Of a DNA stretch of 64,000 nucleotides, positions 53,066 through 62,327 are shown piece by piece. The notes beneath the pieces are model-generated. The model was not told where the DNA came from and ran no database searches. It saw nothing but the letters and a program-made list of their open reading frames with translations. Position 1 is the first letter of the stretch; every line of letters starts with the position of its first letter. A program made the translations under genes and the position numbers. The DNA is taken from contig JABLXA010000003.1 in the NCBI GenBank assembly GCA_013178415.1, positions 64,815 through 128,814 on the forward strand. The letters run 5' to 3'. Origin of the DNA: Bacillota bacterium. GTDB taxonomy: Bacteria > Bacillota > SHA-98 > Ch115.

Positions 53066-54298
53066 CTAGCTATTTAAAGGTAAGGTGAAATAAAATGAGG
53101 ACCCCTTCTCCTCCTGACTTTCAACCCATATCTTGCCACCGTGGGCCTCGACAATTCCCTTAGATATGGAAAGTCCAAGACCGAGTCCTGTTCCCGGTTC
53201 CCGGTCCTTGCCGCGCACAGGGCCAAAAGGCTCAAAGATGCTCTCAAGTCTCTCTTTCTTGATTCCCACGCCGCTGTCGGTTACCTCGACTTGCACATGG
53301 TCTCCCGCATGACTGGCCCGGACCAGGATCCTTCCCTCCGGCATTGTAAACTTGATAGCATTGTCAAGTAAGTTAGTAAGCACCTGATGAATTCGATCTC
53401 TATCCCACTTTCCCATAACAGGACCCGAGACTTGTACAGAAATCTCGATCTTCTTGGCGGATGCCAACGGCTTGACTTCCTGAACCACGCTACTGATAAC
53501 TTCGCACAAATCCATATCCCCGAGGTTCAATATCAATTCACTATGATGGATTTTCGCCATATCCAGGACATTGCTGATGATTCGCGCCATCCTAAGGATA
53601 TTCCGGTCGATCACCTCCAGAGCATCCCTCTGCCGTTCAGACAGATCGCCCATCCTTCCCTGAAGCAAAAGCTGGACATATGCCCTCACAGACGCAAGGG
53701 GGGTCCTCAATTCATGCGAGGCAACCGAAACATAGTCCAATTCCGGGATCCCCTGTCCATTATATCCTGTGGGCGCGGATCTTTCCAGTTCAAGGGGAAA
53801 TTCCTCTTGCATGCCGATGGGATTTTCGATAGGTCTCTCGGGAGAAAGGAGCGCCAGAGTTTGGGATGATGTTCGTATCTTCGTCATTTCCTTTAGAATG
53901 AACATCATACAATCCGCAAAAGCCGCCAACGCGGGCTCGTCCCCATCTTTTGGTCTGAGTTCCTTCCCGCCGGCCAGGACGAACACCCCCACGACGCGAC
54001 CTCCATCTATTAAAGGGACGGCCCTCAGGGGCGATGGGCTCCCCACTCTGAAGAGTCTCAACATCGCGCTTCTGAGCCCTTCATCTATATCCGCCGCAAA
54101 ACCGGAAATAACCTTTTGGTCAATGCCAAAAGAAGCGGCTATGTTAAAGGAATAATCCCCTCTGATGAGCAGCAAGACCCCCCTGGATGCTCCCATAAGA
54201 GAACCTGCCGATCTCAGAACCACGTCCAGGATCGCCTTGAGGAGCTTGAGGGGGGCGACGAGACCTCCAGAATTTATTGCGAAATTGGCGTCCGTCAT
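53066..54298 (-). CDS. Cytosolic GAF-like sensor histidine kinase
   Basis: 410 residues with no membrane segment. Residues about 15-145 look like a GAF-type sensor (ASRGVLLLIRGDYSFNIAAS, AVPLIDGGRVVGVFVLAGG). The HisKA domain has the phosphoacceptor H195 in VASHELRTPLASVRAYVQLL. HATPase_c is complete, with N box LTNLLDNAIKFT, G1 VTDSGVGI and G2 GTGLGLGLSISKGIVEAHGG. Its ATG overlaps the REC-KaiC stop (ATGA). The signal is probably a cytosolic small molecule. Because the coupled receiver lacks its phosphoacceptor Asp, its phosphotransfer partner may be elsewhere. Confidence 0.9.
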   Translation of the reverse strand: MTDANFAINSGGLVAPLKLLKAILDVVLRSAGSLMGASRGVLLLIRGDYSFNIAASFGIDQKVISGFAADIDEGLRSAMLRLFRVGSPSPLRAVPLIDGGRVVGVFVLAGGKELRPKDGDEPALAAFADCMMFILKEMTKIRTSSQTLALLSPERPIENPIGMQEEFPLELERSAPTGYNGQGIPELDYVSVASHELRTPLASVRAYVQLLLQGRMGDLSERQRDALEVIDRNILRMARIISNVLDMAKIHHSELILNLGDMDLCEVISSVVQEVKPLASAKKIEISVQVSGPVMGKWDRDRIHQVLTNLLDNAIKFTMPEGRILVRASHAGDHVQVEVTDSGVGIKKERLESIFEPFGPVRGKDREPGTGLGLGLSISKGIVEAHGGKIWVESQEEKGSSFYFTLPLNS

Positions 54299-55365
54299 GG
54301 CATATTCACCAGCGGATTTAGTCTGATGCCATCTTGGGTGATCTCGAGACGATGTTCACCGGGAAGGTAATTGCTGCCGCGCAGCTTTTGGATGCGCAAT
54401 AGCCTTAGATCCTCATCACCGATGTTCCTATTTTCCAGCCAGATGATCCCATCAGCGGCGGCAGCCTCAGGAACCACATCAATGGCAGTCTCGGAATATT
54501 CACCAACCCAGAGGGCAGTCAAGGAATAAGCGGAAAAAAGGCGAACAATGCCAAACAATGTTTTACGATACTCCACCATCGAGGGGGAAAAAGTGCGCAA
54601 TGATCTGAAGCTGTCGATGGCGATGATCTTGGGGAAATTGCTCCTCACTATGTCCATGATAATTTCAGGGAGGCACGAAATACCCTCGCGTACGAGCCTA
54701 TCACTGACATCGAGGAATTTGACATTTCGGGTCATCTTATCAGGATCGAAAAAAGAAAATCTTTGAACATACCTGACTGCCTTTTCGAGGCCCTCCCATG
54801 GGGCCGTCACGTAGGCGGCAGGAAACTCGTCGCTGGCGTTGGAAAAGAGTATCTGCTGAGCCAATACTGACTTGCCTGTCCCGAACGCTCCTGCAATCAA
54901 GTGAATGGCATTGACAGGCAGGCCGCCGCCCAATACCGCATCCAGATTCTTATCACCAGTCGCGAGACGCTGCCAAGATGACGCATGGAGGTCTCTGGAC
55001 CGCTGGGTGAGCTCCTTGACAGTCATGACAAACTGCGCTTCATCCATTGGCTTCAAGAGGAAGGCATCTGCTCCCGCCTCACGCGATCGCTGCCTTACCA
55101 TGAGCTCGCTGAATACCAGAATCGGTATCTTACCGGTCCTCGGATCATCCTTGAGGCGACGGCAAAGGCTCAATCCGTCCATGCCGGACAATAATATCTC
55201 AGTGATCACAAGATCAGGGCCCAGCTGAGCCGCCTTCTCCGCAGCAGACTCCCCATCGCCGGCAGTCTCAACACGGAATCCCTCGGCCTCTAAGATGCGC
55301 CGTTCCAGCGAAGACATGCGAGAATCATTTTCGACCACCAGTATGAGCGGTGCATGTTCTGGCAT
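54295..55365 (-). CDS. Receiver domain fused to KaiC/RadA-like ATPase, with Glu at the phosphoacceptor position
   Basis: 356 residues. Residues 6-122 form a REC domain, but the usual phospho-Asp is E56 (PDLVITEILLSGMDG). The acidic pocket is altered (VVEND in place of VVDDE), while the switch Ser (FSE) and K105 (LLKP) remain. Residues about 133-350 are a RecA/KaiC-family ATPase with LDAVLGGGLPVNAIHLIAG, Walker A GAFGTGKS (159-166) and Walker B KIIAIDSFRSL. The receiver may be locked in an active-like or phosphorylation-independent state. ATG 55365 is chosen (AGGG 5 nt upstream). It lies 3' of a c-di-GMP riboswitch leader. Confidence 0.85.
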   Translation of the reverse strand: MPEHAPLILVVENDSRMSSLERRILEAEGFRVETAGDGESAAEKAAQLGPDLVITEILLSGMDGLSLCRRLKDDPRTGKIPILVFSELMVRQRSREAGADAFLLKPMDEAQFVMTVKELTQRSRDLHASSWQRLATGDKNLDAVLGGGLPVNAIHLIAGAFGTGKSVLAQQILFSNASDEFPAAYVTAPWEGLEKAVRYVQRFSFFDPDKMTRNVKFLDVSDRLVREGISCLPEIIMDIVRSNFPKIIAIDSFRSLRTFSPSMVEYRKTLFGIVRLFSAYSLTALWVGEYSETAIDVVPEAAAADGIIWLENRNIGDEDLRLLRIQKLRGSNYLPGEHRLEITQDGIRLNPLVNMP

Positions 55366-55581
55366 CACATCCCTATCCTTTCCTGAAAGCGATATCTGGA
55401 TTGCCTGAATGAGCTAGTGCGCGATGCCGGAAACCTTTACCCATCTAATCTTTCAATGATCACAGAGAAAATCCTGCATAGCGAGCCAGTTTCGGCGGAG
55501 AAGTGGAAGTCCTGGCCGATCTTCAGATATAGGCGCCGGGTCCCAACGCGTGATTCCCAGGGGCCGAGGCTGTAACGCTCA

Positions 55582-55682
55582 CAACAAAAATCGGGGTCGA
55601 AAGGTCCGGGCTCTTGGGTGGGGCGGGAAGTGCGCGCTCCTTCCATGGGAGGAAGCGCAGACCCGAGCCCTTTTCGACCCCG
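55582..55682 (-). terminator. Second terminator-like hairpin in the riboswitch leader
   Basis: CGGGGTCGAAA (55592-55602) pairs with TTTCGACCCCG (55672-55682). GGGCTC (55608-55613) pairs with GAGCCC (55665-55670), and the apex has a GCGC-bounded hairpin. On the reverse strand it is followed by ATTTTTGTTG. It is larger than a usual terminator and could also bind a protein or act in antitermination. Confidence 0.55.
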
Positions 55683-55689
55683 ACGCTTT

Positions 55690-55737
55690 GATCGAAAAAT
55701 AAAACCTGCCCGGGAATTGCCATACCCGTAAAGCAGG
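55690..55737 (-). terminator. Riboswitch expression-platform terminator
   Basis: On the reverse strand, CCTGC (55737-55733) pairs with GCAGG (55709-55705), and CGGG (55728-55725) pairs with CCCG (55714-55711). TTTTATTTTT follows. The 3'-arm sequence CCGGGCAGG recurs just after the aptamer (55771-55763), where it can pair with the same CCTGC to prevent termination. Confidence 0.75.
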
Positions 55738-55762
55738 TGAGCAAACTCAAGGGAACCCTATT

Positions 55763-55886
55763 CCTGCCCGGCTTCCGGCAACCCGGCTATCATAGCCGAC
55801 CATCGCATATTATGCGTGGCTGTTGGCTTTAGACCCGTGGCTTTGCGTCCCCGCCTTTTGGACGGATTTGCCTTTATCTGATCCGG
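55763..55886 (-). promoter_or_regulatory. Cyclic di-GMP-I (GEMM-I) riboswitch aptamer
   Basis: On the reverse strand the conserved blocks appear in order: GGCAAATCC (55872-55864), a short stem-loop CCGTC/GGCGG, GGACGCAAAGCCACGGG (about 55851-55835) with CTAA, then TATGATAGCCGGGTTGCCG (55794-55776). These match the class I c-di-GMP aptamer core. By hand alignment to the Vibrio Vc2 aptamer, the position equivalent to G20 is G, which favours c-di-GMP over cGAMP. P1 can form from TCCGG and CCGGA. The downstream terminator/antiterminator supports a transcriptional switch. The nearest gene in the right direction is REC-KaiC. Confidence 0.88.
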
Positions 55887-55918
55887 ATGAATGTAAACAA
55901 TATATATCGAAAGTATCG

Positions 55919-59695: not shown

Positions 59696-61300
59696 CTATC
59701 TCGTGAGCTTCACGCCAAGCCCAAACTCTTTCCTCTTCTCCCTCCAGGTCACGGTCACATCAAAACAATGTAGATGCCTGGCTACGGTCCAGTCGCTATC
59801 TACAAGGACCTGTGTCCTGAGATCATATTGGCCTGACCAGGCGATCGTCCACCCGGGGAAGGCGCCGAGGCTAAACCTCCCGTTCAACTCATCTGCGTCG
59901 GATTGTCTGTCAAAGGAAAAGGGAGTCTCCCCGATGGCCCTTACAACCCGGTAATCAAGCCCCAATTGCGACGATGGCCCCGCCTGTGCCGCGAGGCTGA
60001 TGGTCGCATCGATGGCGCCTGCTGAATCGCCCGTGCCATAGAAACGCCTATTTGCTTTCATGCTTGCCCCGAGCGAGACATTTTTCGTAAGCTTCAAAGG
60101 ATCAGCGAGGGATATTTGCATTTCCGCAGTCGCCCGCGCGGCTTCCCGGCCTGTGGCCGATTCGGCAAATCTCCCGGCCTCACCTACTAGCTTCACAGAG
60201 ACCTCATCACCAATCACCCGAAAAGGCTTAGATTCTACCTGGATTCGCGGGATGGCATCCACATAACCTACGTCCTGCCTTGTTCGCTCTGCCGCCGCCA
60301 AATAGCGATAGTTCCTTGACTCACCTTCGAGACGGATGCCGCCTGCAGTTGGGAACGATTGTTTCCAATCGAGATCTGCACTAGCATTTATACCTGGCGC
60401 TGGAATATAAGAAAGATCGACCTTCGCCTGCGCCCCGTCAAGACGGCTCCAGAGGATCCCGCCATGCCCGCTCAGTTTATCTCCTTTGACAATGCCCAAA
60501 GACTTTGGGCCATAATCATAATCAAACCCGAGAGCCCAACCGGCGCGACTCGCGTATTCGGCATCAATGGAGAGCTTGCTGTAGTCGTCAATGGAATAAT
60601 GGTAATCAGCCCCGACTATCACGCCCTTGTCCGGCTTATAGGCCAACCGCACATGAGGCATTGACTCATCCCAATCAACCTGTGGAAGCATGCTGTCTCT
60701 CGCCTCGGTCTTCTTGAGGGGCAAGGTCAGTCTGGGGATCGGAATCACAGGGTAACGGCCTAGATATAGAACGACCCTTTGGGCTACCAGACGATCGCCA
60801 GGATATATGACGATTCGCCTGGCTCGCACGCTGTAGCACGGGGTTTTGAGATCGCATCTGGTTACCACGCTGCCATCGAGAACGAAATCATGTCGGGTGA
60901 TAGTGGCAGAATCCGCGCCAATGATGAGGCCATCCACCACAAGATGGGCGCTATCGAACGAGATCTCTCCGGAATTCATGTCATAGGTAAGTCTATCGCA
61001 CTTCCCCGAATCAGTCTTCTTTTTGAAGGTCACATTTCCCGCTGCCACCAGGGTCTGCGCTGAAAGATCAGCGTCAATCTGATCTGCGGTGATGGTGATT
61101 TCGCCGCTATTCGCGCTGACGTTCCCGGTGGCAATCACATACATCCTATCTGCCACATATTCAAACGAATCCGCATCAATGACGATAGGCTCAGCAGCCT
61201 CGCAGGCCCTGGCAACGAGAACGACTGTCATGAACATGAAGATAGCGACAGCTGGTAATATGGCCCATAGGCTTCGATCTTTCAAACAAGAAATGCGCAA
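59696..61300 (-). CDS. LptD/OstA-like outer-membrane protein
   Basis: About 534 residues. A signal peptide (LWAILPAVAIFMFMTVVLVA then ACEA) is followed by a beta-jellyroll OstA/LptA-like domain (about residues 35-150: IDADSFEYVADRMYVIATGN, then EITITADQIDADL). A segment typical of LptD follows, TRCDLKTPCYSVRARRIVIY, then PVIPIPRLTLPL. The last 330 residues look like a beta-barrel with alternating strands. In Gram-negatives LptD inserts LPS into the outer membrane. TTG 61300 is chosen, with GAGGG 9 nt upstream. A start at 61402 would overlap the upstream gene. This is key evidence for a diderm envelope. It is shorter than proteobacterial LptD. Confidence 0.78.
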   Translation of the reverse strand: MRISCLKDRSLWAILPAVAIFMFMTVVLVARACEAAEPIVIDADSFEYVADRMYVIATGNVSANSGEITITADQIDADLSAQTLVAAGNVTFKKKTDSGKCDRLTYDMNSGEISFDSAHLVVDGLIIGADSATITRHDFVLDGSVVTRCDLKTPCYSVRARRIVIYPGDRLVAQRVVLYLGRYPVIPIPRLTLPLKKTEARDSMLPQVDWDESMPHVRLAYKPDKGVIVGADYHYSIDDYSKLSIDAEYASRAGWALGFDYDYGPKSLGIVKGDKLSGHGGILWSRLDGAQAKVDLSYIPAPGINASADLDWKQSFPTAGGIRLEGESRNYRYLAAAERTRQDVGYVDAIPRIQVESKPFRVIGDEVSVKLVGEAGRFAESATGREAARATAEMQISLADPLKLTKNVSLGASMKANRRFYGTGDSAGAIDATISLAAQAGPSSQLGLDYRVVRAIGETPFSFDRQSDADELNGRFSLGAFPGWTIAWSGQYDLRTQVLVDSDWTVARHLHCFDVTVTWREKRKEFGLGVKLTR

Positions 61301-61322
61301 ATCTTCCAACCCTCGCACAAAT

Positions 61323-62327
61323 CTATTGTCCCTTGGGAGCAGCCGGCGAAACCCCGGGTTTGATCTGAATGACAGGGAGATCTGATATGGATCCGCTGGC
61401 ATCTCCCGGATAGGTTAGTCCAAGCGCCTCAACCTCCTTTTGGACGGAGACAAACATCTCGGTGCCCGCAGGTAAGATCGCTTCCTTGCCTTCAACCAGG
61501 AAGCCGCCGAGCGCGCCTATAGGGCCGAAGATCACGAAGCCCGCGACACTAGCCCCTACGGCAAGCTGCAGGCTTTCATTCATCTTCTTCACACTCTCAC
61601 TGAGGCCCAACATTATCCTCGTTCCATCTATGGCCCGGATAGAACCAAAATCAAGCTCCACCTTGCCATCGCGGCCAAGGCGACCTGCTGGCTCGACGCT
61701 GGTTATCGTGGCCGCCCCTCGAGTACCTTTGGGGATCACCACTTCTGTACCTACGATAACATCCCGGGAAACCTCATATTGGATTTTGTCGCCTTTCTTT
61801 GCGTTGGCCGAGCTGAAGCCCTCAATCATCCTGATCTTCACTGCCGTCCCCGAAGGAATCCTGACCCTGGCCATCGAGACTCTCCCCTGGGGCAGGCAGA
61901 GGTTGACCAAATCCTCCACTCTGGCCACAATCGAAATCCCCTGCTTCGTGTTGCCGGTTATAAGTTTCTCCAACCTATCAACCTTCGGGACGACAGGTTC
62001 AGAGCTCACAGCTCTCATGAGATTCCATTCGACTGCGGCCAGCTTGAAGGCAAGGGACGGCCCTTCCAGGAGGCTTGCTCCTACAAAGGCATTGAGCTTA
62101 GCCACCCTGTCCATGATGGTCCCGTCTTGCTCCTTGCCAAAAAGGTCTTTCTCCATCTGGCCAATCCGAGAAATAATGGCGCCACTGGATTCCCGACCAT
62201 AGAGAAGCATTTCGGCCTGAGAGAGATTTGTGAGAAGTGGCGATTCCCCTAATGCGACGGGAGTTGCGGGCCCCAAAGTCAAAGCGCACATTATCGACAA
62301 AACAACATAAAGTGATCTCGTCTTCAT
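61323..62327 (-). CDS. Secreted protein with LFG-type repeats and a central beta domain
   Basis: 334 residues with a clear signal peptide (LYVVLSIMCALTLGPATPVALG). Three related helical motifs follow: AEMLLYGRESSGAIISRIGQ, KDLFGKEQDGTIMDRVAKLN and EKLITGNTKQGISIVARVED. The central domain (about 150-240) is beta-rich (VRIPSGTAVKIRMIEGFSSA, GTEVVIPKGTRGAATI). A Gly/Ala hydrophobic stretch (GASVAGFVIFGPIGALGGFL) could be membrane-associated. I do not recognise a named family. The LFG-type repeats recall proteins of diderm Firmicutes and cyanobacteria. It lies between two barrel genes and is probably part of the outer-membrane assembly. Confidence 0.65.
   Translation of the reverse strand: MKTRSLYVVLSIMCALTLGPATPVALGESPLLTNLSQAEMLLYGRESSGAIISRIGQMEKDLFGKEQDGTIMDRVAKLNAFVGASLLEGPSLAFKLAAVEWNLMRAVSSEPVVPKVDRLEKLITGNTKQGISIVARVEDLVNLCLPQGRVSMARVRIPSGTAVKIRMIEGFSSANAKKGDKIQYEVSRDVIVGTEVVIPKGTRGAATITSVEPAGRLGRDGKVELDFGSIRAIDGTRIMLGLSESVKKMNESLQLAVGASVAGFVIFGPIGALGGFLVEGKEAILPAGTEMFVSVQKEVEALGLTYPGDASGSISDLPVIQIKPGVSPAAPKGQ

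Follow-up and report, generated by a model that had tools for sequence, protein, structure and literature searches.

A candidate c-di-GMP-I transcriptional riboswitch with a duplicated strand and a second long hairpin upstream of a response regulator–KaiC gene

In the leader considered here, a nine-letter word, CCGGGCAGG, occurs twice, once at the edge of a c-di-GMP-I aptamer and once within a terminator hairpin (T1). This raises the question of whether the duplication forms a terminator/antiterminator switch operated by the aptamer and, if so, in which direction. The window, i.e., the whole analyzed stretch of DNA, comprises 64,000 nucleotides; the coordinates of the features are given in Table 1.

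Table 1. Features of the leader and of the genes downstream (window coordinates)
Feature	Positions	Strand	Basis
c-di-GMP-I (GEMM-I) aptamer	55774–55882	minus	RF01051, 73.1 bits, E 2e-12, gathering score 35
P1 5' arm UCCGG; possible partners CCGGG in copy 1 (register A) or, for UCCG, CGGA 55777–55774 (register B)	55883–55887	minus	folding
Copy 1, CCGGGCAGG, proposed antiterminator strand, overlaps P1 3' arm in register A	55763–55771	minus	sequence search, folding, shuffles
UUUGCUC, local hairpin with copy 1 (GGGCAGG)	55739–55745	minus	sequence and folding
CCTGC, partner common to both copies, terminator 5' arm	55733–55737	minus	sequence search
Terminator hairpin T1, loop TGGCAA as in class relatives	55704–55738	minus	sequence, folding, comparison
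Copy 2, CCGGGCAGG, 3' arm of T1	55705–55713	minus	sequence search
U-tract of T1, TTTATTTTT	55695–55703	minus	sequence
Long hairpin T2 (93 nt), C-rich stretch ACTTCCCGCCCCACCCAA on 3' side, then TTTTT 55590–55586	55591–55683	minus	z −4.64
Response regulator receiver domain and KaiC-type ATPase gene, 3' of leader	54295–55368	minus	Pfam PF00072, PF06745
Histidine kinase gene (HisKA, HATPase_c), after the response regulator–KaiC gene	53066–54298	minus	Pfam domain search

The locus and its aptamer

The leader lies on the minus strand between the end of a GFO/IDH/MocA-type oxidoreductase gene (55919), its upstream neighbor, and the start of the response regulator–KaiC gene (55368), which is probably the gene under control, about 330 nt downstream. 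A simple scan found no sigma-70-like promoter just 5' of the leader on the minus strand. The response regulator–KaiC protein has its nearest match in the class in genome G001 (55% identity); this ortholog comes from the genome search, and the contig-level protein search returned no relatives. The G001 contig (L032) is DUSO01000187.1, "Bacillota bacterium isolate AS04akNAM_35". Both in G001 and in G002, a c-di-GMP-I leader likewise precedes a response regulator gene and follows a gene that, judged by eye, is like the oxidoreductase of the window.

This is a new c-di-GMP-I leader from a little-known lineage of Bacillota, and it would tie c-di-GMP to a response regulator–KaiC/histidine kinase operon. 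A literature search for a c-di-GMP riboswitch together with KaiC and a response regulator found no paper; among the papers retrieved with Tad or Flp terms, none describes this arrangement, judged by title or abstract. Elsewhere in the window, the minus-strand ORF 59696–61402 presumably resembles an outer-membrane LPS-transport (OstA/LptD-like) protein, which, if so, would suit a two-membrane member of Bacillota.

The aptamer match clears the gathering score of the covariance model by a wide margin (Table 1) and is the only RF01051 match in the genome (3,573,219 bases in 57 contigs searched). All 17 class genomes carry the family, with 32 matches in total, as do 229 of the 299 sampled genomes of the phylum. 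Generally, G at position 20 marks the c-di-GMP rather than the c-GAMP type; model column 12 of the aptamer is G55871, which we take to be G20 in Vc2 numbering, and by this rule the specificity base points to c-di-GMP as the probable ligand.

For comparison with relatives, 55 loci were used (30 of the 32 class matches and 25 of the 30 loci from the phylum sample). A GNRA loop on P2 is typical of c-di-GMP-I riboswitches, though not defining. It is present in 50 of the 55 loci, while the window aptamer has CAAAA (55860–55856, minus strand); AAAA or CAAA is seen in three further loci of the class (L117, L120, and L127), and one locus is truncated. The second departure is CAG before AUAAAGG, versus CCG as the commonest variant in relatives. 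The remaining conserved core is intact.

The genes following other leaders were also noted. Many c-di-GMP-I leaders in the rest of the class precede Tad/Flp pilus-like genes (judged by eye, after L002, L007, L095, L111, L112, L104, and L115), and a response regulator gene follows the leader in the window, in G001 (its second leader), and in G002.

The duplicated strand and the terminator

The original prediction placed one copy of the nine-letter word directly after the aptamer and made another the 3' arm of a terminator, and both copies are found exactly there (55771–55763 and 55713–55705, minus strand), copy 1 starting 3 nt past the end of the aptamer match (55774). A third copy occurs elsewhere in the window on the minus strand; the plus strand has none. 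Pairing of both copies with CCTGC at 55737–55733 is also borne out by complementarity, hence, an antiterminator and the terminator would share one strand and be mutually exclusive. The hairpin T1 (ACCTGC-TTTACGGG-TATGGCAATT-CCCGGGCAGGT) has a folding energy of about −16 kcal/mol and is followed by TTTATTTTT, so an intrinsic terminator hairpin with a U-tract is present downstream of the aptamer. A simple terminator scan, with a loop limit of 8, missed it (0 found).

The nine-letter repeat alone is modest evidence, with a chance of about 2%: exact repeats of 9 nt or longer appear in 94 of 5000 sequences obtained by dinucleotide shuffling of the 78-nt platform and, on the minus strand of the window, in 27 of 1640 real stretches of 78 nt. 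The complementarity of the copy 1 region to the terminator 5' arm, taken in this leader alone, is within chance, being matched by 246 of 2000 shuffles (quantile 0.19 if the arm is taken slightly longer). Partners for P1 and for the antiterminator that are jointly as good as those of the window are seen in 11 of 300 shuffles, and the two strands overlap by 11 nt versus 4.6 expected. Thus, the repeat gains meaning only from its placement and from the relatives.

The TGGCAA loop of T1 is frequent among class terminators. Over the 55 leaders, a hairpin with a U-tract lies within 150 nt in 36 by a loose criterion and in 32 by a stricter one; the 32 include leaders from 16 of the 17 genomes in the class, which thus have a detectable terminator behind the aptamer. 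In class relatives, the segment at the P1 3' arm (GAGAAGG) nearly repeats the 3' arm of the terminator (GAGCAGG). In 29 of the 32 loci with a detected terminator, the stretch most complementary to the terminator 5' arm begins at most 5 nt from the C93-aligned base, a placement that is partly trivial, as many of the stretches measure just 15–26 nt. Overall, the complementarity exceeds that of shuffles, 20 of 22 groups falling under the 0.5 quantile (Fisher p 0.0025, a value that is too small because some groups are near-identical pairs). The complementarity and overlap tests leave out 23 of the 55 loci, where no terminator was detected or the preceding stretch was shorter than 12 nt.

Joint P1 and antiterminator partners are matched in 6 of 300 shuffles for the syntenic response-regulator leader of G001 and in none of 300 for a G003 leader; for several close members of the class they are not rare (e.g., 60 of 300 for L111). 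The overlap of the antiterminator and P1 strands over the 32 loci (mean 6.2 versus 5.6 expected) is not clearly higher than by chance. The syntenic G001 leader differs in its letters yet retains all three elements (P1, antiterminator, and terminator), whose strands appear to have co-changed. Leaders at contig ends (L096, L124, and others) are incomplete, fixed position offsets are invalid for L124, and the L104 row of the leader alignment contains the aptamer alone.

Proposed direction of switching and the folding evidence

The best reading is an ordinary transcriptional riboswitch. With moderate confidence, we consider the leader a c-di-GMP class I expression platform with intrinsic-terminator control, acting as an OFF switch in which the ligand-closed P1 holds copy 1. 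Without c-di-GMP, nascent copy 1 would capture CCTGC-TTTA-CGG upon its emergence; the terminator would then be unable to close, and transcription would read through. With c-di-GMP, the aptamer would close P1, whose 5' arm UCCGG would hold CCGGG of copy 1; CCTGC would be left free to pair with copy 2, and transcription would terminate at the U-tract. We infer the P1 register, the ligand dependence, and the OFF direction; the comparative layout favors a ligand-dependent exchange and suggests the OFF direction, the original prediction having given none.

Two registers of P1 are to be considered. In register A, UCCGG (55887–55883) pairs with CCGGG (55771–55767), with further pairs G55878:C55777, C55880:G55775, and U55881:A55774, and J1/2 stays the 6-nt AUAAAG as in relatives; a CG before J1/2 faces a CG in 36 of the 55 loci. 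An OFF switch like Cd1 is predicted since copy 1 here would serve both as the antiterminator strand and as part of the P1 3' arm. In register B, UCCG (55887–55884) pairs with CGGA (55777–55774), P1 leaves copy 1 untouched, and J1/2 extends to 12 nt versus 6 nt in relatives. The energy model favors register B (−40.8 versus −38.1 kcal/mol for register A at transcript end 55763 with P2/P3 held, a gap of 2.7 kcal/mol), which counts against the OFF direction, as copy 1 is then free. The proposal that copy 1 is released or held by P1 consequently holds for register A only.

Folded by transcript end, the antiterminator is short-lived, and its probability fluctuates irregularly as the transcript grows. 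When the 5' arm of P1 is blocked, the values are 0.83, 0.43, 0.02, 0.14, and 0.89 at ends 55733, 55728, 55724, 55720, and 55714. With register A enforced, the antiterminator still reaches 0.76 and 0.59 at ends 55733 and 55728, which also speaks against the OFF direction, and is at most 0.01 from 55724 on. With register B enforced, the values are 0.72, 0.56, and 0.48 at ends 55728, 55724, and 55720, decreasing to 0.02 at 55714 as a local hairpin of UUUGCUC (55745–55739) with copy 1 gains. This hairpin, a further point against the OFF direction, can coexist with the terminator and competes with the antiterminator for copy 1.

Register B would also permit an ON switch, which we regard as improbable. 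Here, the ligand-bound P1 would free copy 1 as the antiterminator; in the ligand-free state, the P1 3' arm TGCCGG would pair by fold-back, over the loop AAG, with CCGGGCA of copy 1, and the terminator would form. The fold-back was the first idea from the letters and was demoted to a rival by the comparison with relatives. The energy preference for register B and the antiterminator values of up to 0.72 under it agree with an ON switch, although the same register demands the 12-nt J1/2 and yields almost no antiterminator at end 55714, the local hairpin forming instead; without constraints, the fold-back helix has a probability of 0.14–0.33 at the majority of ends between 55763 and 55705, but often less than 0.03 with P2/P3 held.

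Once complete, T1 has a probability of 0.94–0.999 in all three settings (at least 0.95 with P1 enforced in either register, 0.94–0.997 with the P1 5' arm blocked). The comparison of folds with and without P1, by which the original prediction was to be checked, hence shows no clean switch: ligand-dependent exchange of terminator and antiterminator is not seen in equilibrium folds, full-length T1 winning in every constrained state, and folding for this reason cannot tell whether c-di-GMP switches the leader. Burial of copy 1 in P1/P3 in all states, the outcome that would have spoken against the prediction, is not seen either. Copy 1 sits where relatives carry the strand complementary to their terminator 5' arm, and T1 resembles the terminators of the class; given the lack of switching in folds and the release of copy 1 in register B, its interpretation as an antiterminator is just partly supported. 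The same applies to the switch as a mechanism, of which T1 is present and class-like, while the exchange itself does not appear in the folds.

These results bear on a further possibility, to which we assign a low probability: there may be no effective switching, either because the duplication is incidental and T1 stops most transcripts with or without c-di-GMP, or because a responsive T1 is masked by the second hairpin, T2. The dominance of full-length T1, the chance levels of the repeat (about 2%) and of the complementarity (about 12%), and the two departures of the aptamer agree with it; the otherwise intact core and the retention of all three elements with changed letters in the syntenic G001 leader argue against it. 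Masking of this kind is reported for Bc1 (PMC11218506), and T2, too, is followed by five T; however, its G001 counterpart has no U-tract.

In unconstrained folds the aptamer is mostly unformed, its strands entering another long-range structure, and T1 has probabilities of 0.12, 0.67, and 0.89 at ends 55705, 55700, and 55690. Conceivably, the ligand-free state is a long-range antiterminator formed from the aptamer (the P2 3' strand and its neighbors with the terminator 5' arm), copy 1 being idle. The unconstrained ensemble is indeed 5.5 kcal/mol below the P2/P3-held one at end 55720, but the energy model leaves out tertiary and ligand stabilization of the aptamer, and we consider this state very improbable.

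The second hairpin and comparison with known systems

The more unusual part of the leader is not the riboswitch but T2, which sits directly downstream of T1. Its G001 counterpart occupies the same place (L009, 2836–2747, minus strand; z −4.70). The 18-nt ACTTCCCGCCCCACCCAA on the 3' side is identical in both hairpins; the longest identical run otherwise is 8 nt in the rest of the spacer, 11 nt in the neighboring gene, and at most 11 nt in 200 shuffled alignments. The stems have diverged with compensation: both bases differ in 5 of 19 pairs, and pairing is intact in all 38 cells of the window and G001, counts that are biased towards the structure, as it was picked from the same two sequences. 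The T2 model matches 2 of the 17 class genomes (that of the window and G001). Among 299 phylum genomes, 3 contain the 18-mer when up to one mismatch is allowed; exact matches are limited to the window's genome and G001.

Several identities of T2 were considered and rejected. No Rfam family matches T2 in the window at the gathering threshold, and laxer searches gave just microRNA and snoRNA matches far under gathering scores. T2 is not a repeat, being single-copy in the genome. A conserved peptide is disfavored, as the ORFs, compared by eye, have TSRPTQ alone in common, and there the identity of the 18 nt extends to wobble positions. Two viral matches of the 18-mer have folds unlike T2. A longer T2 pattern gave 58 contig matches; among the 14 lowest-energy folds viewed, the G001 contig alone has the shape.

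T2 is thus a candidate terminator, protein-binding hairpin, or small RNA. Tentatively, and with low probability, the leader may have two parts, a c-di-GMP-I gate followed at once by a new structured RNA (55683–55591, with ACTTCCCGCCCCACCCAA) that would serve the response regulator–KaiC/histidine kinase operon as a small RNA or as a further regulatory domain. If functional, T2 would represent a previously undescribed RNA element gated by c-di-GMP.

Among known systems, the leader has its closest described case in Cd1 of Clostridioides difficile (the comparisons with Cd1 and pilM draw on PMC9262584). Cd1 is a c-di-GMP-I transcriptional OFF switch, as proposed here, with an intrinsic terminator and an antiterminator formed from the aptamer-stabilizing strand at the aptamer 3' end. 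Unlike in the window, it has another downstream gene and no P1 by NMR; the P1 of the window that uses copy 1 is putative. The pilM riboswitch of Geobacter metallireducens shares the aptamer superfamily and terminator control, but is a c-GAMP sensor and an ON switch whose terminator is formed from the P1 3' strand; the window leader has G at the G20 position and both terminator arms downstream of P1.

Bc1 of Bacillus thuringiensis resembles the window leader in that a long expression platform carries two terminator-like hairpins in succession; according to PMC11218506, it has two terminators 28 bp apart and no c-di-GMP response in vitro. In contrast, the second hairpin of the window is 93 nt long and carries a conserved C-rich stretch, and in G001 it lacks the U-tract. 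The c-di-GMP-I leaders of the class share with the window the layout of P1, antiterminator, and terminator and the TGGCAA loop; unlike most of them, which precede other genes, the window leader precedes a response regulator–KaiC gene and has a longer platform.
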